Made by a program: the position numbers and the translations under genes. A stretch of DNA of 64,000 nt. Source: Christiangramia sp. (GTDB lineage: Bacteria > Bacteroidota > Bacteroidia > Flavobacteriales > Flavobacteriaceae). This document shows positions 46,730 through 55,694 of the stretch, piece by piece (position 1 is the stretch's first letter; each line of letters begins with the position of its first letter). Where the stretch lies: NCBI RefSeq assembly GCF_029937855.1, contig NZ_JAPYPC010000003.1, forward strand, positions 62,001 to 126,000, given 5' to 3'. The notes under the pieces were generated by a model that was not told the DNA's origin, did not search any database, and saw only the letters and a program-made list of their open reading frames with translations.

Positions 46730-46810
46730 TAAAAACAGTATTTGAAATTAAATAGATGCTATTATTGATCTTAAATGAATATATATAATTTTAAGTATAC
46801 TTAAATTAAG

Positions 46811-46924
46811 ATGACTCTACTAATAGATTTAGAAAAATTGATAGAAAATAAAATTAAGGTATTTATTATGCCGGAAAATTTATTAAAACACGCTAAATTT
46901 TGTGGTAAGAACAGAAGAAATTAG
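46811..46924 (+). CDS. Possible small or decayed ORF (37 aa)
   Basis: ATG to TAG, starting MTLLIDLEKLIENKIKVFIM. It directly follows the 14-base palindrome by 6 bases. No homologue recognised; the sequence could equally be chance. A +1 shift at residues 29-31 would extend it by about 20 residues, so it may be a remnant. Confidence 0.15.
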   Translation: MTLLIDLEKLIENKIKVFIMPENLLKHAKFCGKNRRN

Positions 46925-46991
46925 TGAAGGTAATTCTGATCCGAGCGCCAAAAATTAACTTGCAAACGGAATGAATCTTAAGATAACGCTA

Positions 46992-47120
46992 CTAAACCTG
47001 CATTGAATTAAAGCTACTGTATTCTGATAAAAATATCAAAATTTCCCCTTTTGCTTTCACATAAAATTCTACTTCAATTTTACTGTAGAAATCCGGACAT
47101 GATTTACTTGATGTTACCAT
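46992..47120 (-). CDS. Possible small ORF (42 aa)
   Basis: ATG to TAG on the minus strand. It includes SKSCPDFYSKIEVEFYVKAK and lies downstream of peptide gene A in the same direction. Composition is protein-like (alternating charged and hydrophobic residues), but length and lack of motifs leave it doubtful; it may be a gene fragment. Confidence 0.2.
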   Translation of the reverse strand: MVTSSKSCPDFYSKIEVEFYVKAKGEILIFLSEYSSFNSMQV

Positions 47121-47470
47121 GATAGCTAAAATATTTTTTGGTAAGGAAATTTATGAATTGCAAAATTCAGTTGTTACAAAGTTTTACCGCAACACTTTTG
47201 CTTACTATTCATTCGTTACTAGTAAATATTTATAAAACGTAAATTCTAAATAGTTCATTTGTTTTGTCCTTTAATTAGGAAAATGATTTAAAAGATTCGA
47301 GCTATTTATCTACTTATATGATATTGAAATAATACCACTAGATTTTGAAGACAAAGGTTAGCTACTACTTGCAACTTTATTTAAAATTTTTCCTGAAATA
47401 TTATAAAATATCTTCACCTTATAACATCCAAAACACACTGGTGTTTTAATATATTAAATAAAATCTCAAA

Positions 47471-47506
47471 TAAAAGGATAGGATATTATTTTTACTACCC
47501 TATCCT
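47471..47506 (-). terminator. Terminator after peptide gene A
   Basis: Minus-strand stem AGGATAGG / CCTATCCT (47499-47506 with 47475-47482), 16-base loop, then TTTTATTTG. It begins 13 bases after the stop at 47519. Confidence 0.7.
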
Positions 47507-47518
47507 GTTTAACATAGA

Positions 47519-47707
47519 TTAAGCTTCAAAACAAGTTCCATCTAAGCATTTCCACTCTGTAGCATCGAACTGATAGTTAGTGCATGGAGCACAATCACTA
47601 TCCGTTGCACAATAGGAAGGACAGGAAGAAGCTCCTCCATTAATTTTGCCTAATTGTTCAGAAGAAAGCTCCAATACGTTTACGCGACTCAAAATAGTTT
47701 TTAACAT
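47519..47707 (-). CDS. Double-glycine-leader Cys-rich peptide precursor A
   Basis: 62 residues. The leader (residues 1-25, MLKTILSRVNVLELSSEQLG then KINGG) fits the Bacteroidota pattern LSxxxLxxIxGG recognised by C39 peptidases; cleavage is expected after Gly25. The 37-residue core starts ASSCPSYCATDSDCAPC and has six cysteines (29, 33, 39, 42, 54, 59), an even number suited to three disulfides. It has no Ser/Thr-rich ring pattern and no modification enzyme gene nearby. It is transcribed away from the VKOR-fusion gene, whose product probably oxidises it, and shares an upstream motif with peptide gene B. Activity (bacteriocin, signal or other) cannot be read from the sequence. Confidence 0.82.
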   Translation of the reverse strand: MLKTILSRVNVLELSSEQLGKINGGASSCPSYCATDSDCAPCTNYQFDATEWKCLDGTCFEA

Positions 47708-48027
47708 ATTTATAATTTTAATTAATTATTTACCTTGAACATTTTAGAACTAGCAAGGCATTAGTTCATTTAAAAAATAATTAAAAAGCTTCGAATTTAT
47801 TTAAAATATAGTCTCTAATCTAATTATTTCTTTTTTATATTACATACATTAAATTTAATTATTTTTGATAAAATTCCTAATAATTCATTGAAATTAATCA
47901 AGAATTACAAAATTCTATTTACTTTTCGAAAGTAAATAATTGTAAAAATCTTAAGAATATCCAGTTGGTAGATCTGCAATATTTTTCTATCGACATATTT
48001 ATAACCTACAACTAAAAAATAAGACAT
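47708..48027. other. Divergent intergenic region, peptide A / VKOR fusion
   Basis: 320 bases, very AT-rich, without a gene. Near the peptide A side it holds the shared CTTG...AAATGTTCAAG element (47734-47757). No convincing -33/-7 pair was found for the VKOR-fusion gene on the plus strand; AT-richness gives many weak matches. Confidence 0.7.
47734..47757 (-). promoter_or_regulatory. Shared upstream element of peptide gene A
   Basis: The minus strand reads CTTG, 9 variable bases, then AAATGTTCAAG, ending exactly 26 bases before the ATG at 47707. It aligns with the element before peptide gene B at 19 of 24 positions with identical spacing. CTTG/CAAG form an inverted repeat. The TTG followed after 21 bases by TAAATAAT could also be a weak promoter. 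Confidence 0.65.
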
Positions 48028-49593
48028 TTGGAACAATTACTTGAACAATTTTTAATTAAGAACAACTATACTAATTTTGACGAAAATGTAATAAAACTTC
48101 AGTTACAGACTCATCCAAACTATCCAAGTTTTTTATCGATAACCGAAACACTTAACTATTTTAATATTGAAAATCTTGCTGCTAAAATTCCAACTGATTC
48201 TTTGGCAATTTTACCAGACCATTTCTTAAGTTTAATAATTCAAGGCAATACTAAGGAATTAGTTCTTGTTTCTAAGAAAGGACAACAAATTAAGACAAGG
48301 AACGCCAAAGGTGAAAAAAAAACTTTGACCGAAAATGCTTTTATTGCGATTTGGGAAAATTCAATTATTGCAATAGAACCAGGAAGAAAAAAACTGAAAA
48401 AAACAAAAATTAAAATAATCTGGATCTTCCTAATCACCACTATAATATTTGGATTGTTATTTCTTCAAGGAATTTCTTTTATTGAAATTTTCCTGTTGAT
48501 TATGACAAGTGCGGGCATATATCTTGGTTATTTATTAATCAAGGAAAAAATAGGAGAACATTCCCAAGCGGTGTATAATATTTGTAATATCCATCAGAAG
48601 ACAAATTGCAATGAGGTTATAAATTCAAAAGGATCTAAAATTTTTGATTATTTAGACTTGTCTGATTTGACGTTTATCTTTTTTAGTAGTTTAATGTTAT
48701 TCCAGCTTTTTTTTCAATGGAGTTCCTTTTTGAATTTTATATTACTAACATCCATTCCCATAGTATTATATTCAATTTATTATCAAGCAGTAATATTAAA
48801 AAAATGGTGTGTCCTATGTTTGGCTGTTAGCGGTTTACTAATTGTTTTCACCTCGATAGCCATACTAAATTACCCCCTAATTTTCTTAATCATTGATGCA
48901 GTTCAATTTATTTTGATTATTTCTTTAGTTGCTTTTTCATTCACATTTGCCAAAAATCAATATATTATAAGAAAAAAATTATTTTCTGAAAATATTTCTT
49001 TGAGACGTTTTAAAAGAGATCCAGAAATCTTTCAGCATATCTTTTCAAAGGCAAAAGTTTTCGAACGGATATCACCAATACCGAAAGAAATTACTCTTGG
49101 AAACCCAGAAGCATCATTTCAAATAACTGTAGTTACAAACCCTCTTTGTGGATTTTGTAAAACTGCTTTTGAAAACTATCTTAAAATATTAAATACTCAT
49201 CAACAAAATATAAAACTAGTAATCCGTTTTAGTGTTCGCGTAGATAATTTAGAACATCCTTCTACAAAAATCAGCACTCGATTGATTGAGATTTATCATG
49301 AAAAAGGGAATGAAAAATTTATAAAAAGCTATAAGGGTTGGTTTGAAAACAGAAATGTAGTTGAGTGGTTATCATCACATGGCGAACCTAAATTTGATAA
49401 AATAACTTTAAATATTTTGATACAACAAAAAGAGTGGATTCAATCTAACGATTTAAATTATACTCCAGCAACAATAGTTGAAAATAGAATGTTCCCAAAA
49501 AATTACAGTTACGAAGATTTGCCGCATCTGATTAATGATATAACCACAATAGTAGATGGCAAAAATGTACCTGATTTAGCCGAGACAACATGA
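48028..49593 (+). CDS. C39-like / VKOR / thioredoxin fusion, membrane disulfide oxidase
   Basis: 521 residues. Residues about 5-118 resemble a C39 peptidase fold (THPNYPSFLSITETLNYFNI aligns with the GxSLLSLS segment of C39 domains) but lack catalytic Cys and His, so they may only bind leader peptides. Residues about 127-305 form a membrane VKOR domain with loop cysteines Cys186 and Cys194 and the active CxxC WCVLC (Cys261, Cys264). Residues about 350-505 are thioredoxin/DsbA-like with CGFC (Cys374, Cys377) and the cis-Pro segment YTPA (Pro480). It should pass electrons from peptide thiols to quinone, forming disulfides. The start is TTG at 48028; no ATG fits. It is flanked by both peptide genes and followed by the exporter. 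Confidence 0.85.
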   Translation: MEQLLEQFLIKNNYTNFDENVIKLQLQTHPNYPSFLSITETLNYFNIENLAAKIPTDSLAILPDHFLSLIIQGNTKELVLVSKKGQQIKTRNAKGEKKTLTENAFIAIWENSIIAIEPGRKKLKKTKIKIIWIFLITTIIFGLLFLQGISFIEIFLLIMTSAGIYLGYLLIKEKIGEHSQAVYNICNIHQKTNCNEVINSKGSKIFDYLDLSDLTFIFFSSLMLFQLFFQWSSFLNFILLTSIPIVLYSIYYQAVILKKWCVLCLAVSGLLIVFTSIAILNYPLIFLIIDAVQFILIISLVAFSFTFAKNQYIIRKKLFSENISLRRFKRDPEIFQHIFSKAKVFERISPIPKEITLGNPEASFQITVVTNPLCGFCKTAFENYLKILNTHQQNIKLVIRFSVRVDNLEHPSTKISTRLIEIYHEKGNEKFIKSYKGWFENRNVVEWLSSHGEPKFDKITLNILIQQKEWIQSNDLNYTPATIVENRMFPKNYSYEDLPHLINDITTIVDGKNVPDLAETT

Positions 49594-49607
49594 GTAAGGA
49601 CAAAAAT

Positions 49608-49631
49608 CTTGATTGTCCGTAAATGTTCAAG
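49608..49631 (+). promoter_or_regulatory. Shared upstream element of peptide gene B
   Basis: CTTG at 49608-49611 and AAATGTTCAAG at 49621-49631, ending exactly 26 bases before the ATG at 49658, as for peptide gene A. Followed by TATCATAA, a weak -7-like sequence at a 21-base spacing from the TTG. It begins 14 bases after the stop of the VKOR-fusion gene, so gene B probably has its own start of transcription. Confidence 0.65.
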
Positions 49632-49657
49632 ATATCATAAATTTAAAACTTTATATT

Positions 49658-49819
49658 ATGTTAAATGAAATTTTAAACAGCGCAGAGGTGTTAAGTAAAA
49701 ATCAACAAAAATCTATTAGAGGTGGCGGTAACTGCCAGACGTGTTATGACAACAATGGAGGTGCATATAATAATCTAGATCCTGCCTGCGAGGGATGTGG
49801 TTTGCCAGAACCAATGTAG
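49658..49819 (+). CDS. Double-glycine-leader Cys-rich peptide precursor B
   Basis: 53 residues from ATG 49658; an in-frame TTG at 49613 lies inside the shared regulatory element and is rejected. The leader MLNEILNSAEVLSKNQQKSI plus RGG (Gly22-Gly23) is a good match to the Bacteroidota GG-leader consensus (LSKxxxKxIxGG). The core of about 30 residues has four cysteines in two CxxC motifs, CQTC (26, 29) and CEGC (44, 47), separated by an Asn/Gly-rich loop. Two disulfides or a metal site are both possible. The core is unrelated to that of peptide A. A strong terminator follows, before the transporter gene. Confidence 0.78.
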   Translation: MLNEILNSAEVLSKNQQKSIRGGGNCQTCYDNNGGAYNNLDPACEGCGLPEPM

Positions 49820-49870
49820 TTTATTTAATAATTTCCAGACGTATTATATCACGTATGGTACAATAAATTT

Positions 49871-49910
49871 AAAAAGGATTGAAAAAAAAATTTTCAATCC
49901 TTTTTTAGTT
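49871..49910 (+). terminator. Terminator or attenuator between peptide B and the exporter
   Basis: A perfect 15-base stem AAAAAGGATTGAAAA (49871-49885) / TTTTCAATCCTTTTT (49891-49905) with an A5 loop and a T tail. It would allow peptide mRNA to be far more abundant than transporter mRNA. Confidence 0.85.
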
Positions 49911-50001
49911 GTACACCTGCAGAATAATTCAATCTTTACATTAAAGTTTTTTATATTTTACTTAATTTGCCTTTCTAAATATATCCCAATCTTCTCAACT
50001 T

Positions 50002-52194
50002 TTGCTTAAAAATTTCCCATTTTATAAACAACCAGATGCAAAGGACTGCGGCCCTACTTGTCTAAAAATAGTTGCAAAATACTACGGTAAAACAATTTCT
50101 TTGCCAGAGCTTAGACGGTTAAGTGAGACAACTAGGGAAGGAAGTTCTTTATTATCATTGAGCGATACTTCAGAAAAGATTGGTTTTCGTACTCTGGGAG
50201 TCAAACTTTCCACTTCAACTCTTAATGAAGCTACATTACCGTGTATTCTGCATTGGAATAACGATCACTTCGTAGTTCTTTATAAAATAAAAAAAGGAAC
50301 TTATTACATTTCAGATCCAAGCTATGGCTTGATTAGTTATTCGGAGCAAGAATTTATAGATACTTGGATAGGTAAAAATGCCAATACTGAAGATTCTGAA
50401 GGTATCGCATTATTATTGGAGCCCACTCCAAAATTTGAAAATTATAAAACAGACAAAGAAGATATTGATTATGGTTTTGGGTTTTTATTTCAGTATGTTT
50501 TTAGATACAAAAAATTTATAACGCAATTAATCATTGGGTTGCTCGCTGGCAGTCTATTACAAGTAGTTGTTCCTTTTTTAACACAGAGTGTAGTAGATGT
50601 TGGTATTAAAAACCAGGATATTGATTTTGTATATCTAATACTTTTTGCACAAATAGCGCTTTTTATAGGACGGAGTGCCATAGAAGTTATTAGAAGCTGG
50701 ATTCTTTTGCACTTGAGTACACGTATCAACATTTCATTGATCTCAGACTTTTTTATTAAATTGATGAATTTACCAATTGCTTTCTTCGATACTAAAATGA
50801 CCGGTGATATTATGCAACGCATTAATGACCACAAAAGAATTGAGAGCATTCTTACTACTTCGTCACTTACAGTATTATTTTCTACAATGAATTTTTTGGT
50901 TTTTAGTATTGTCTTGGCATACTACAGTTGGTTAATATTTTTTATTTTTTTGTTGGGGAGTATCCTCTATTTTGTCTGGATTTTACTATTTCTCAAGAAA
51001 AGACGAGAACTCGATTATAAAAGATTTTCTCAGGTAAGTGCAGAACAAAGCAAAGTTATTGAATTAATTAACGGAATGCAGGAGATAAAATTGCATAATG
51101 CCGAAAAACAAATGCGGTGGAATTGGGAACATGTTCAAGCTAGGCTTTTTAATATTTCTATAAAAAATTTAGCTCTGGAACAATATCAAAGCGTAGGGTC
51201 ATCTTTAATTAACGAGTTAAAAAATATTATTATAACTATCCTTTCCGCAAAATTGGTGATTGATGGAAATATCACTCTTGGTATGATGTTAGCGATATCT
51301 TATATAGTTGGACAACTTAATTCTCCAATTCAACAATTTATAACTTTTGTAAGGCAGTTACAAGATGCCAGAATTTCTTTGGAGCGTTTGGGTGAGATTC
51401 ATAATAAGGAAGATGAAGATCCTATTGACGCTAAGAAAATAGGTAAACTAGATATCACTAAAAATATAAAATTAGAGGATGTAAGCTTTCGTTATATAGG
51501 TAATAAAGATTTGGTTATAAAAAACTTAAATCTAGAAATACCAGCTAAAAAAATAACTGCTATTGTTGGAGCAAGTGGTAGTGGCAAGACTACTTTAATG
51601 AAACTTTTATTGAACTTCTATAAGCCTAATGAAGGCAAAATTTTAATAGGAAATACTGATTTAGAAATAGTCTCCAACAAGGTATGGCGGAAACATTGTG
51701 GAGTCGTCATGCAAGAAGGATATATTTTTAATAACACTATTGCTCACAATATAGCCGTAGGAGAGGACTATATAAATTACGAACGGCTTGAACACGCTAC
51801 TAAGGTAGCAAATATCACATCATATATCGAATCTCTTCCTTTGAGGTACAATACAAAAATTGGCTTGGAAGGGACAGGACTTAGTACCGGACAAAAACAG
51901 CGTTTGTTAATAGCCAGAGCAGTTTATAAAAATCCTAATTTTTTATTTTTTGATGAAGCTACCTCTGCTTTAGATGCCAATAATGAAAGAACAATTATGG
52001 AAAATCTTAATAGATTTTTTGAAAATAAAACAGTAATTATAATTGCTCACCGTTTAAGTACCGTTAAAAATGCCGATCAGATTGTAGTTTTGGATGATGG
52101 TAAGATTATAGAAAATGGGACACATAAAGAATTAACAGCTCTTAGAGGAAATTATTTCAAACTCGTTAAAAATCAATTGGAACTAGGAAAATAA
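50002..52194 (+). CDS. C39 peptidase-containing ABC exporter (PCAT)
   Basis: 730 residues. The N-terminal C39 peptidase domain (about 1-140) is intact: Cys16 in KDCGPTCLKIVAKYYG, His89 in WNNDHFVVLY and Asp105 in SDPSYG. It is followed by an ABC transmembrane domain (about 165-450, five to six segments) and an ATPase domain with Walker A GASGSGKTT (about 523), signature LSTGQKQR (variant of LSGGQ) and Walker B FLFFDEATSALD. It removes GG leaders and exports the cores across the inner membrane. The start is a TTG at 50002, placing FPFYKQPDAKDCGP at the normal N-terminus. It overlaps the adaptor gene by 1 base (TAATG), so the two are translationally coupled. Confidence 0.93.
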   Translation: MLKNFPFYKQPDAKDCGPTCLKIVAKYYGKTISLPELRRLSETTREGSSLLSLSDTSEKIGFRTLGVKLSTSTLNEATLPCILHWNNDHFVVLYKIKKGTYYISDPSYGLISYSEQEFIDTWIGKNANTEDSEGIALLLEPTPKFENYKTDKEDIDYGFGFLFQYVFRYKKFITQLIIGLLAGSLLQVVVPFLTQSVVDVGIKNQDIDFVYLILFAQIALFIGRSAIEVIRSWILLHLSTRINISLISDFFIKLMNLPIAFFDTKMTGDIMQRINDHKRIESILTTSSLTVLFSTMNFLVFSIVLAYYSWLIFFIFLLGSILYFVWILLFLKKRRELDYKRFSQVSAEQSKVIELINGMQEIKLHNAEKQMRWNWEHVQARLFNISIKNLALEQYQSVGSSLINELKNIIITILSAKLVIDGNITLGMMLAISYIVGQLNSPIQQFITFVRQLQDARISLERLGEIHNKEDEDPIDAKKIGKLDITKNIKLEDVSFRYIGNKDLVIKNLNLEIPAKKITAIVGASGSGKTTLMKLLLNFYKPNEGKILIGNTDLEIVSNKVWRKHCGVVMQEGYIFNNTIAHNIAVGEDYINYERLEHATKVANITSYIESLPLRYNTKIGLEGTGLSTGQKQRLLIARAVYKNPNFLFFDEATSALDANNERTIMENLNRFFENKTVIIIAHRLSTVKNADQIVVLDDGKIIENGTHKELTALRGNYFKLVKNQLELGK

Positions 52195-53480
52195 TGCCAC
52201 AGAGCCGACAACAGTTAAGGAGTGAGGAAGTACAAGATATTCTCACCAAAGTTCCTCATTGGATGATCCAGTGGGGAAATACAATAGTTTTGATATTAAT
52301 CATATTATTTTTCATACTCGCCTGGTTAATAAAATATCCTGATATTATAAGTGCCGAAGCCGTTATTACCTCAAAAACACCTCCACAACGCGAATTTGCA
52401 CGGGTTTCAGGGAAAATGGATACAATATTGGTTGTTGACAAGCAAAAGGTTGTTCAAGGACAGATTATGGCCATGATTGAAAATCCAGCAAATTTGAAGG
52501 ATATTATTTTTTTAAAAAAAATCATTGATTCTTTAAATCTGAACGGTGGTAGAATAAATTTACCTGTTGAGCAATTGCCAATATTGGAATTGGGTGAAGT
52601 CGCTTATGCATATTCTATTTTCGAAAAAGAATACATTGATTATTTACTGAACGAAACATTAGATCCTTATAAAAATAAAATTGCCGCCAATCAATTATCA
52701 GCTTCAGAATTAAAGTTAAGACTCACCAATCTTGAAAACCAAAAGGCGATAACACATGAGACTTTTCAATTTTCGGAAAATGAATTAAAACGACATAAAA
52801 AATTATATGAAAAAGGAGTTATTTCCCTTCAGGAATATGAATCAAAACAGCTAGGTTTTCTGGAAAACAAGAGAAATTTAAAGAATATTGACATTTCTAT
52901 TTCACAGCTTAAACAAACACTTAATGATGCTTATCATACTGAAAAAGAAAATGTGATTAATAATCAGATGGTCGAAACACGATTATTTAAAAACGTTATT
53001 CAATCTCTCAACCAATTAAAAAAAACAATTAAAGATTGGGAACAACTATACCTTTTAAAATCTGACATAGAGGGAGAAGTAAACTTCATGAGCATTTGGA
53101 ATGAAAATCAAACAGTTAGCAAGGGAGATTTGCTATTTACTATTGTCCCAAACAAAATTGAGAATTATTTAGCTAGGATTAAAGCCCCGATTCAAAATAG
53201 TGGAAAAATAAAGTCCGGTCAAGAAGTTAATATTAAACTACTAAACTACCCTGAAACAGAATATGGAGTACTTGAAGGAAAAGTAAAAAACATATCTGCT
53301 ATTCCTAATAGTGAAGGCAGTTATATTGTAAATGTACCATTGGAAAAATCCCTTGTTTCATCGTATAATATAGAAATACCTTTTAAAAACGAAATGACCG
53401 GTACTGCAGAAATAGTTACAGAAGATCTACGTTTGATTGAACGATTTTTTTACCAAGTTAGGGGTATTTTCACCAATTAA
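52194..53480 (+). CDS. HlyD-family membrane fusion protein
   Basis: 428 residues. A short cytoplasmic N-terminus, one membrane segment (about 28-46, GNTIVLILIILFFILAWLI), a periplasmic coiled-coil region (about 150-285, rich in Lys, Glu, Leu, Asn) and two lipoyl-type half-motifs (around 65-95 and 290-330) mark an HlyD/adaptor protein of type I secretion. It links the C39 exporter to an outer-membrane TolC-like channel that is not in the window. The ATG overlaps the exporter stop. It is the last gene of the export unit. Confidence 0.9.
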   Translation: MPQSRQQLRSEEVQDILTKVPHWMIQWGNTIVLILIILFFILAWLIKYPDIISAEAVITSKTPPQREFARVSGKMDTILVVDKQKVVQGQIMAMIENPANLKDIIFLKKIIDSLNLNGGRINLPVEQLPILELGEVAYAYSIFEKEYIDYLLNETLDPYKNKIAANQLSASELKLRLTNLENQKAITHETFQFSENELKRHKKLYEKGVISLQEYESKQLGFLENKRNLKNIDISISQLKQTLNDAYHTEKENVINNQMVETRLFKNVIQSLNQLKKTIKDWEQLYLLKSDIEGEVNFMSIWNENQTVSKGDLLFTIVPNKIENYLARIKAPIQNSGKIKSGQEVNIKLLNYPETEYGVLEGKVKNISAIPNSEGSYIVNVPLEKSLVSSYNIEIPFKNEMTGTAEIVTEDLRLIERFFYQVRGIFTN

Positions 53481-53532
53481 ATCTTTAATTTTTTTTAAAC
53501 AGCAATTGTATAGCCTGTCATTTCTTTTAAAT

Positions 53533-54807
53533 ATGAATCAACCTCTCGCCGAAAGACTGCGCCCAAAAACACTTGAAGATTATTTAAGTCAGCAACATCT
53601 TATTGGCAAAGATGGAGCACTCAAACAACAGATAAAACAGGGAATTATTCCTTCCATGATCTTTTGGGGGCCACCCGGCGTTGGCAAAACAACCTTAGCC
53701 AATATCATAGCTACAGAATCTGGCAGACCCTTTTTTACTCTTAGCGCTATTAGCAGTGGAGTGAAAGATGTTCGGGAGGTTATTGAAAAAGCAAAAAAGA
53801 GTGAAGGCTTATTTACGACAAAAAGTCCTATCCTGTTTATAGACGAGATTCATCGTTTTAGTAAGTCCCAGCAGGATTCACTTTTGGGAGCTGTAGAAAA
53901 AGGTTGGGTCACCTTAATTGGCGCAACCACAGAAAATCCCAGCTTTGAGGTAATCTCAGCATTGTTATCCCGTTGCCAGGTATATATTTTAAAACCATTT
54001 TCTAAAGATGACCTGGTGGCTTTACTGAATAGAGCCATTAAAGAAGATAAGGTAATCGCAGCCAAAAATGTCAGTTTAAAAGAAACCGAAGCACTTTTAA
54101 GACTTAGCGGGGGCGACGCGAGAAAACTGCTGAATATCTTTGAGCTCCTGGTAACTTCTGCTGAAAAAAATGTAGAGATCACTAACGATCTTGTACTTTC
54201 TAAAGTTCAGCAAAATACGGTGCTCTACGATAAGACTGGCGAGCAGCATTACGATATTATTTCAGCTTTTATAAAATCTATAAGAGGTAGTGACCCAAAT
54301 GCAGCTGTGTATTGGCTTGCGAGAATGATCGAGGGCGGTGAAGACGTGAAATTCATCGCGCGTAGATTATTGATTCTTGCTAGTGAAGATATTGGAAATG
54401 CTAACCCAACAGCTTTAGTGATCGCGAACAATTCTTTTCAGGCGGTGAACACAATAGGATATCCTGAAGCGAGGATCATCCTTAGCCAGTGTGTGACATA
54501 CCTTGCGACTTCACCTAAAAGCAATGCCGCTTATATGGCAATTAATGAAGCTCAGAGCCTGGTTAAGAAAACTGGCAACCTTTCTGTTCCCTTAGCCATA
54601 AGAAATGCTCCTACCAAACTCATGAAAGATATCGGCTACGGAAAAGATTATAAGTATGCGCATAACCACGAAGGCAATTTTGTTGCTGCTGAATTTATGC
54701 CAGAAGAAATAAGCAATACAACACTCTACAAGCCCGGAAACAATCAGCGTGAAAATGCACAACGTGAGTTTTTACGAAAAAGATGGCAGAAAAAATATGG
54801 TTACTAG
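53533..54807 (+). CDS. rarA: Replication-associated recombination ATPase RarA (MgsA)
   Basis: 424 residues from the ATG at 53533, where MNQPLAERLRPKTLEDYLSQ matches the family; the longer open frame from 53437 overlaps the adaptor gene and is rejected. AAA+ motifs are Walker A GPPGVGKTT (46-54), Walker B FIDEIHRF (102-109) and the sensor segment IGATTENPSFEV; the C-terminal tetramerisation region contains PEARIILSQCVTYLATSPKS. It acts at stalled replication forks. It converges on the 54804-55694 gene with a 4-base overlap of the stops. It is housekeeping and marks the right edge of the island. Confidence 0.95.
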   Translation: MNQPLAERLRPKTLEDYLSQQHLIGKDGALKQQIKQGIIPSMIFWGPPGVGKTTLANIIATESGRPFFTLSAISSGVKDVREVIEKAKKSEGLFTTKSPILFIDEIHRFSKSQQDSLLGAVEKGWVTLIGATTENPSFEVISALLSRCQVYILKPFSKDDLVALLNRAIKEDKVIAAKNVSLKETEALLRLSGGDARKLLNIFELLVTSAEKNVEITNDLVLSKVQQNTVLYDKTGEQHYDIISAFIKSIRGSDPNAAVYWLARMIEGGEDVKFIARRLLILASEDIGNANPTALVIANNSFQAVNTIGYPEARIILSQCVTYLATSPKSNAAYMAINEAQSLVKKTGNLSVPLAIRNAPTKLMKDIGYGKDYKYAHNHEGNFVAAEFMPEEISNTTLYKPGNNQRENAQREFLRKRWQKKYGY

Positions 54808-55694
54808 TTTTTGAGCTTATAGGTTAAAGAAATTTTCTCATTCTTTTGCCTGTCCAGGTATTCTACGATAAGGTTTCCTGTAACATCAAAATAAGCGACT
54901 CCCTGATTGGTAAGCGAATTATAAATATAGCTTTCCCCTCCGTTTGTTTCTATTAAAATTGCAATAGGCTCTGAAGAATCTTCCTGATATAAACCTAAGC
55001 CCTGATTGGTCTTTTTAAGATTATAAGATTTTCCTGAAAAAAGAAATTCTGAACCGGTCTTAATCTTACGCTCTGCCCTGGCAACTGGTGCAGTGTCTTC
55101 TAATATCTCATTTTCATCTGCTACTGATTCTTCTTCTTCTTCTTCTTCTTCTTCTTCTTCTTCTTCTTCTTCTGCATCAACTTCTACATCTTTTGATGGT
55201 TCCGCCGCAGCGATAGCAGGCACAGCAACTACTTCCACTTCCGGGGTTTTTTCTTGTTCAGCAGATTTAACATACTTATATTCCAGCTCTTCGATAGAAC
55301 TAAATGCATCCCGCAATGCTTCTTGGTAGGCATTCTTAAAATCTTTTTCCCGGCTCCTGCCCTCTTTAGATTCGAATATTACCCTATCATTACAATCCAG
55401 AAGTTTTAAAACCAGTTTAGTTACAAAAAGTCCGGAATTATCCTCAAGTTTCGTTTGCAAACCAAGACAGCGATCTGTATCCAGATCTGAAGGTTTATTT
55501 TCTGTTTTCATGACAGTATTGAATCCATTTTGTTCAAAAAGGAACTTCGTTAAAGAATTCAACCTGTATTTATCCACCTCCTCGGTGAACTGAAAAGTTT
55601 CGGGAATTATAACATATTTATAATTATTGATATCCTGACCGGAAACTTTAATCGCCAACAGTAAGATAAATATACTGGTCAATATTTTTTTCAT
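54804..55694 (-). CDS. Secreted protein of unknown function with a poly-Glu tract
   Basis: 296 residues with a signal peptide (MKKILTSIFILLLAIKVSGQ). The N-terminal domain (about 20-145; YKYVIIPETFQFTEEVDKYR, KLLDCNDRVIFESKEGRSRE) is a type common in flavobacterial periplasmic proteins with no known function. A low-complexity linker follows with 15 consecutive Glu encoded by (GAA)15 (55128-55172), then a C-terminal domain with short beta-strands (GKSYNLKKTNQGLGLY). The trinucleotide tract can change length by slippage without breaking the frame. It is followed upstream on the same strand by the DUF5723-like gene. Confidence 0.72.
   Translation of the reverse strand: MKKILTSIFILLLAIKVSGQDINNYKYVIIPETFQFTEEVDKYRLNSLTKFLFEQNGFNTVMKTENKPSDLDTDRCLGLQTKLEDNSGLFVTKLVLKLLDCNDRVIFESKEGRSREKDFKNAYQEALRDAFSSIEELEYKYVKSAEQEKTPEVEVVAVPAIAAAEPSKDVEVDAEEEEEEEEEEEEEEESVADENEILEDTAPVARAERKIKTGSEFLFSGKSYNLKKTNQGLGLYQEDSSEPIAILIETNGGESYIYNSLTNQGVAYFDVTGNLIVEYLDRQKNEKISLTYKLKN
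55128..55172. repeat. (TTC)15 / (GAA)15 microsatellite
   Basis: Fifteen uninterrupted trinucleotide units inside the coding region of the 296-residue protein, read as GAA codons on the minus strand. No other tract of this length was seen in the window. Confidence 0.95.

Follow-up and report, generated by a model that had tools for sequence, protein, structure and literature searches.

We identified, in a 64,000-nucleotide stretch of DNA from Christiangramia sp. (contig NZ_JAPYPC010000003.1, positions 62,001 to 126,000; hereafter the window), an inserted five-gene island that, judging from its sequence and from structural models, quite probably encodes a dedicated pathway for the maturation and export of disulfide-bonded peptides. 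At its center is a membrane fusion protein that joins a C39-like domain, a VKOR domain, and a DsbA-like thioredoxin domain, accompanied by two small cysteine-rich precursor peptides, a C39 peptidase ATP-binding cassette (ABC) exporter, and an HlyD-type adaptor. In the proposed pathway, the precursors, which bear a double-glycine (GG) leader, would be held through it by the catalytically dead C39 domain of the fusion, by analogy with HlyB-type exporters, whose C39 domains are likewise dead, and with the recognition elements of ribosomally synthesized and post-translationally modified peptides (RiPPs). The DsbA-like domain would form disulfides in the core, the VKOR core would hand the electrons to the membrane quinone, and the exporter would cleave after the GG motif and export the core with the adaptor, while an outer-membrane protein encoded elsewhere presumably completes the export. 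The original prediction, made from the letters of this stretch, had grouped the five genes into one coherent set, and the open reading frame (ORF) list and Pfam bear this out. Its reading that the peptides are oxidized and secreted is supported as well, with oxidation and secretion being steps that we infer.

The fusion protein comprises 521 amino acids (aa) (48028..49593, plus strand) and starts at a TTG codon, with an in-frame stop at 48013-48015. Its anatomy was established from Pfam, an AlphaFold model, comparison with the PDB, and the positions of its cysteines. Pfam recognizes VKOR at residues 155-275 and Thioredoxin_4 at residues 353-504, the former at 47.8 bits against a cut-off of 27.5 for family PF07884 and with both the loop cysteine pair and the CxxC motif of that family. 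No Pfam match to C39 was obtained for the N-terminal domain, whose fold was instead recognized structurally in the model (mean pLDDT 91.5, built with 55 aligned sequences). Structure-search rows for the whole model were mostly those of the thioredoxin domain, and the N-terminal domain was therefore also modeled and searched alone. Residues 1-120 resemble the peptidase domains of PCAT1 and ComA, with Z scores of up to 14.0 for the domain alone and 13.6 for a clean match of the whole model. This match begins, depending on the entry, at residue 15 to 22 of PCAT1, whose catalytic cysteine we take to be residue 21. An extra transmembrane helix, with strong hydrophobicity in 54 of 55 members of the family, is predicted at residues 130-146 and is followed by the VKOR domain (about 148-285; Z 13.1 to human VKOR), a sixth transmembrane helix, and the thioredoxin domain (about 342-509; Z 17.9 to ScsC).

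The only cysteines of the protein are C186, C194, C261, C264, C374, and C377, none of which varies in alignments of 14 and 55 members that include the window protein. C186/C194 and C261/C264 form the VKOR pairs, and every catalytic cysteine named in the original prediction is thus present and conserved. Because these six are the only ones, the C39 domain is catalytically dead: the first cysteine of the window protein is residue 186, and in none of the 55 members does one occur earlier than position 65. The fold proposed for this part stands, but not any protease function. A second protease in the fusion was accordingly ruled out by the cysteine positions, and the stop at 48013 allows no upstream extension. 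From the loss of the protease nucleophile, it is more likely that the C39-like part serves as a leader- or exporter-binding module. None of the NCBIfam models matched is specific to the fusion, the window protein matching one VKOR model far below its cut-off, and seven of eight fusion homologues appear in plasmid gene tables under the label "vitamin K epoxide reductase family protein." Among distant fusion homologues, some (locus L039 and matches in genomes G260, G264, and G232) are split or contain stops counted within the match.

Both putative precursors were recognized from the ORF list and the GG-leader motif. Peptide 1 (62 aa; 47519..47707, minus strand) has a 25-aa leader ending in GG and a 37-aa core with six cysteines, and is transcribed divergently from the rest of the locus. 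Peptide 2 (53 aa; 49658..49819, plus strand; best start ATG 49658) has a 23-aa leader and a 30-aa core with four cysteines. The GG leaders and even cysteine counts originally proposed are thus found in both, and both carry the sequence features of a class II disulfide bacteriocin, namely a GG leader and a small core with an even cysteine number; the putative peptides may act as bacteriocins, as signals, or in some other role. Across the whole window, the motif occurs in four small ORFs, and the two others lack cysteine. The exporter (PCAT; 730 aa; 50002..52194, plus strand) contains Peptidase_C39, ABC_membrane, and ABC_tran domains, and its C16, H89, and D105, which we take to be the catalytic triad, are invariant in 15 exporters, in agreement with the intact triad claimed earlier. 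The gene of the HlyD-type periplasmic adaptor (428 aa; 52194..53480, plus strand; identified by Pfam) overlaps the end of the exporter gene by one base. Elsewhere, this genome encodes another, more distantly related C39 ABC exporter (G000 C49:9643-11808, L167), with one stop counted in the match and an ORF that by eye appears recombinase-like close to it.

Homologues of the fusion keep similar company. Among 395 genomes sampled from the class, 24, including the window's own, contain the fusion, and a closely matching C39 exporter (E ≤ 1e-150) was present in 24/24 of these versus 50/371 of the others (Fisher 1e-19, kinship among genomes ignored), as the original prediction had anticipated. Since only two or three candidates were scored per genome, the genome counts for both proteins are lower bounds. 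Gene neighborhoods were examined in the best 80 of 119 fusion loci, some genomes giving two, of which 70 had full flanks, defined as at least 8 kb downstream. The exporter was found in 51 of these 70 loci, the adaptor as well in 50, and GG peptides with at least four cysteines, downstream and on the same strand, in 66. All 22 full-flank loci from Tenacibaculum held both exporter and peptides; outside this genus, the corresponding figures were 29/48 and 44/48. In the 80 loci taken together, the first kilobase downstream of the fusion holds 131 such peptides, compared with 4 in nine same-strand upstream kilobase bins. When ORFs of at least 110 aa were clustered, the fusion, exporter, and adaptor were the only clusters common to more than 22 loci. 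Another set of 29 regions around fusion homologues gave a similar picture: the exporter was found in 22, three cut at the edge of the stretch, and GG-motif ORFs with at least four cysteines in 27, counting either strand (in L038, on the opposite strand alone). Of the two remaining regions, L037 has such an ORF with a variant AG site, and L057 has none. The outcome that would have counted against the original prediction, homologues mostly lacking GG peptides or exporters, was thus not observed. Twenty exporter loci from fusion-free genomes served as a control; they come from 19 genomes, the best-scoring among some 50 that have an exporter but no fusion, and some are shortened by contig ends. 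They yielded eight same-strand GG motifs within 6 kb, only one with at least four cysteines; control and test are not exactly alike, because the former is centered on the exporter and the latter on the fusion. A chance gene cluster was rejected on the basis of the co-occurrence and these controls.

The cysteines of the cores are predominantly even in number. The 80 loci contain 375 precursors with at least four cysteines downstream of the fusion, 242 of them from Tenacibaculum, and 268 non-redundant cores remained after similar ones were removed. An even count was found in 247 of these 268 (outside Tenacibaculum, 92 of 107, with 15 odd), where a fitted truncated Poisson distribution gives an expected even share of 59% after selection for at least four cysteines. 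The leaders are far more constant than the cores. In 16 arrays of at least eight peptides, all from Tenacibaculum and the largest comprising 20 peptides in T. larymnensis, mean identity was 0.71 among leaders, 0.27 among cores, and 0.25 among shuffled cores; the contrast is less sharp in the 23 loci of other genera with at least three peptides (0.71, 0.31, and 0.26, respectively). In precursors that are mostly from Tenacibaculum, information content is 2.0-3.4 bits at leader positions -23 to -14 and 3.4-4.3 bits at positions -12, -7, -4, -2, and -1, which the search motif partly selects for. A constant leader with a free core is the pattern expected of shared leader-reading machinery. That machinery may be the exporter by itself or the exporter together with the dead C39 domain, two cases that look alike at the sequence level.

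The side of the membrane on which the fusion would act was approached through its predicted topology, a matter that goes beyond the original prediction. The six transmembrane helices predicted in the AlphaFold model imply, by helix counting, that the C39 domain, the VKOR active site, and the thioredoxin domain should share one side. Lysine and arginine (K+R) in the loops and flanks average 11.6 on the active-site side versus 1.1 on the other side and are more numerous on the former in 55/55 members, although the active-site-side stretches are about twice as long. With identical segments set around the CxxC motif, mean K+R (other, active-site, and other side) was 0.25, 2.02, and 0.45 in the fusions versus 2.81, 0.19, and 1.73 in 26 other VKORs of the phylum. 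The active-site side was the more charged in 45 of 55 fusions (8 tied, 2 against) and in 0/26 other VKORs (1 tied), so that the bias of the fusions is opposite to that of 25 of these 26 proteins. A second fusion set, which overlaps the first in that L042/L075, L046/L101, and L047/L112 appear to represent identical sites, gave 23/31 (5 tied, 3 against). The 26 controls derive from 30 loci that gave 28 proteins (L174 and L176 gave none), minus two fusion homologues (L179 and L190); for L193, the second CxxC was dropped, and L203, which represents the L176 gene, was scored separately and stands outside the 26.

Under the positive-inside rule, positively charged flanks face the cytosol, whereas the VKOR active site usually lies outside it. 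The charge bias thus favors a cytosolic active site, and we predict that the VKOR of the fusion faces the cytosol, a prediction that may be wrong. Such an orientation would explain the presence of a leader-binding domain on the active-site side. By eye, with no predictor run, no signal peptide was seen before the N-terminal domain. The genome of the window also contains four further VKOR matches, on contigs C49 (L201), C71 (L202), C26 (L203), and C19 (L204). Two of them belong to ORFs of 513 and 519 aa whose remaining hydrophobic stretches differ, that on C19 is partial at a contig end, and the first three keep the ordinary charge pattern.

Taken together, these features could describe a leader-guided pathway on the cytosolic side, in which an inverted VKOR-DsbA oxidase would capture the precursors by means of its dead C39 domain, fold them through disulfides before export, and hand them to the exporter, one enzyme serving many unrelated cores. 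We put this forward tentatively, as a version of the pathway whose correctness hangs nearly in the balance. A serious but rather doubtful competitor is the same system with periplasmic oxidation after export, the fusion facing outward and its dead C39 domain docking to the exporter or to something else. Ordinary VKOR and DsbB enzymes act outside the cytosol, where disulfides are stable; the structural matches of the thioredoxin domain are largely of the DsbA/ScsC type, with a periplasmic or extracytoplasmic location; and TlpA-type proteins adjoin some fusion homologues. However, the six predicted helices would then place the C39 domain outside too, away from the side on which the leader is expected, and both the positive charges on the active-site side and the apparent lack of a signal peptide speak against this arrangement. 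It is highly improbable that the cysteine-rich cores receive another modification, such as a thioether or metal binding, with the fusion merely accessory. A LanC protein and glycosyltransferases do adjoin the homologue on a Parabacteroides plasmid, but the ORF list contains no further long gene in the insert, and no cluster other than exporter and adaptor accompanies the fusion in more than 22 of the 80 loci. The least probable of the readings weighed here casts the fusion as a reductase or quality-control factor that keeps cysteines unpaired until export, disulfides forming outside by other means. A cytosol-facing thioredoxin domain could in principle reduce, and a disulfide-isomerase domain model is weakly matched by 14 of 55 members, which would fit such a role. 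VKOR cores, however, normally pass electrons from thiols to quinone and so drive oxidation, the partner domain is DsbA/ScsC-like in structure, and the mostly even cysteine counts fit pairing.

Several observations weigh against the proposed maturation and export pathway. At the sequence level, the N-terminal domain resembles C39 weakly (hhalign probability 77, E 2e-5), and the exporter too requires a conserved leader, so that leader conservation alone is no proof of binding by the fusion. Odd cysteine counts occur in 21 of the 268 cores, every motif peptide found in three Dokdonia loci (L067, L073, and L087) has seven cysteines, and 13 downstream motif ORFs with fewer than four cysteines were excluded from the parity count. 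No exporter lies nearby in 19 of the 70 full-flank loci, all outside Tenacibaculum, although in 19/19 genomes whose fusion locus has none nearby, one is encoded elsewhere. Seven of the other set of 29 regions likewise have no exporter within the stretch. Four of the 70 full-flank loci lack a downstream peptide recognized by the motif, one of which (L137) has GG cysteine-rich ORFs upstream. The controls include six more GG-motif ORFs with at least four cysteines (in L150, L151 twice, L153, L160, and L161) at distances above 6 kb or on the opposite strand, and the scoring of so few candidates per genome may have led to undercounting of both fusion and exporter. Finally, plasmid loci of Parabacteroides and Emticicia place the fusion with LanC, glycosyltransferases, or TlpA-type proteins, and because of these neighbors, modification there may exceed disulfides.

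The island is an insert of roughly 6.8 kb and low guanine-cytosine (GC) content (46737..53518, ends approximate), delimited by blastn against five congener sites, by the sites of 22 congeners, and by the GC profile. Judging from their sequences, its two flanking genes encode a rhomboid-like protein and a RarA-type ATPase. Alignment to the five congener sites ends at 46735-46736 and restarts at 53519-53532. Of 24 genomes of the genus searched, one was the window's own and another, 67% complete, gave neither flanking gene; the site is empty in all 22 congeners that have both, where the two are spaced 50-57 bp apart by match ends. GC content is 26-34% within the insert versus about 34-43% outside, as profiled over 40-60 kb, and a fusion homologue occurs in only one of 23 congeners, on a contig other than that of this site. 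Given the empty sites, the congener DNA aligning to both ends, the low GC content, and the rarity in the genus, the five-gene locus was most likely gained as one unit; the 22/22 empty sites and the single homologue, on another contig, rule out that the locus was already present in the ancestor of the genus. Inspection of the junction sequences by eye showed no target-site duplication, and no immunity gene is evident among the ORFs listed for the insert. The consensus promoter pattern of Bacteroidota matched nowhere in the island and eight times in the whole window, where 4.2 matches were expected. The left 0.8 kb of the insert (46737-47518) is AT-rich and has no listed ORF longer than 42 aa.

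Among known systems, the nearest described one that we found is the bacteroidetocin locus. Bacteroidetocins have been proposed as class IIf (Coyne et al. 2019, PMC6671954), and the passages of that paper on the locus describe four genes, encoding a five-transmembrane protein, the peptide, a separate thiol oxidoreductase proposed to make disulfides, and a C39 ABC protein, with no obvious immunity gene. By these descriptions, both are small Bacteroidota loci with a GG-leader cysteine peptide, a dedicated thiol oxidase, and a C39 ABC exporter. The island, however, has one fused protein and an HlyD adaptor in place of the separate five-transmembrane protein and oxidoreductase, neither of which has its own gene in the insert, while no HlyD figures in the described locus; relatives of the island also often carry several dissimilar peptides, unlike that locus. 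The logic thus appears the same with a different oxidase make-up, and the island would be more than a variant if cytosolic orientation and leader guidance hold.

Individual elements of the fusion have parallels elsewhere. The C39-like domain of HlyB (3zua, 7sgr, and 8dck) likewise keeps the fold without protease function and probably serves substrate binding, but it is fused to the ABC exporter of large RTX proteins rather than to an oxidase. Prochlorosin-type arrays combine a conserved leader with variable cores, one enzyme serving many; they share this pattern with the island family, whereas their lanthionine chemistry, leader, and enzyme differ. Oxidases of the Synechococcus type also fuse VKOR to a thioredoxin-fold partner, and the island fusion differs from them in its preceding dead C39 domain and transmembrane helix and in its reversed charge bias. 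The VKOR of Aeropyrum pernix, the subject of work by Hibender et al. (2017) titled for VKOR topology and two compartments, is said to be inverted. To our knowledge, neither archaeal nor engineered inverted VKORs involve a C39 domain or GG peptides. VKOR-thioredoxin oxidases of the Synechococcus type are named in PMC12453122, and PMC5471842 describes the use of an engineered inverted VKOR in E. coli. The Aeropyrum and engineered proteins resemble the predicted island oxidase in acting on the cytosolic side, by title or design. Among the matches listed from open-licence full texts, none concerns a C39-VKOR peptide system; by term search, the text of a VKOR phylogeny (PMC4555120) contains neither "C39," "peptidase," nor "bacteroid," and that of a paper on Bacteroidales RiPPs (PMC10352776) neither "VKOR" nor "vitamin K."

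These findings suggest a widespread, little-studied peptide family in Bacteroidota. If the proposed pathway is correct, it would link a large and variable set of cysteine-rich peptides in this phylum to a dedicated enzyme, and the fusion would serve as a search handle for such peptides. The system would also allow one to test whether bacteria can form disulfides in precursors that still bear their leader, ahead of export. If, in addition, the leader-guided cytosolic version holds, the peptides would constitute a class of their own, with disulfides installed by an enzyme on the "wrong" side of the membrane. Should the enzyme be promiscuous over cores, it would be useful for producing disulfide-rich peptides.

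Two plasmid loci differ in composition from the island. On a Parabacteroides distasonis plasmid (NZ_OY725766.1, L199, 6908-14721), a fusion homologue occurs with a 59-aa cysteine-rich protein bearing an AG-type site, a DUF4369 protein, a LanC-family protein, two glycosyltransferase-type proteins, and a C39 exporter, and this locus may possibly make a more heavily modified peptide. The Emticicia oligotrophica plasmid pEMTOL02 (L200, 2106-15509) carries two tandem fusion genes, three TlpA-type proteins, small ORFs of which some are cysteine-rich, a C39 exporter, and HlyD. Outside the insert, positions 54804-55694 of the window encode a predicted protein with a long glutamate run.

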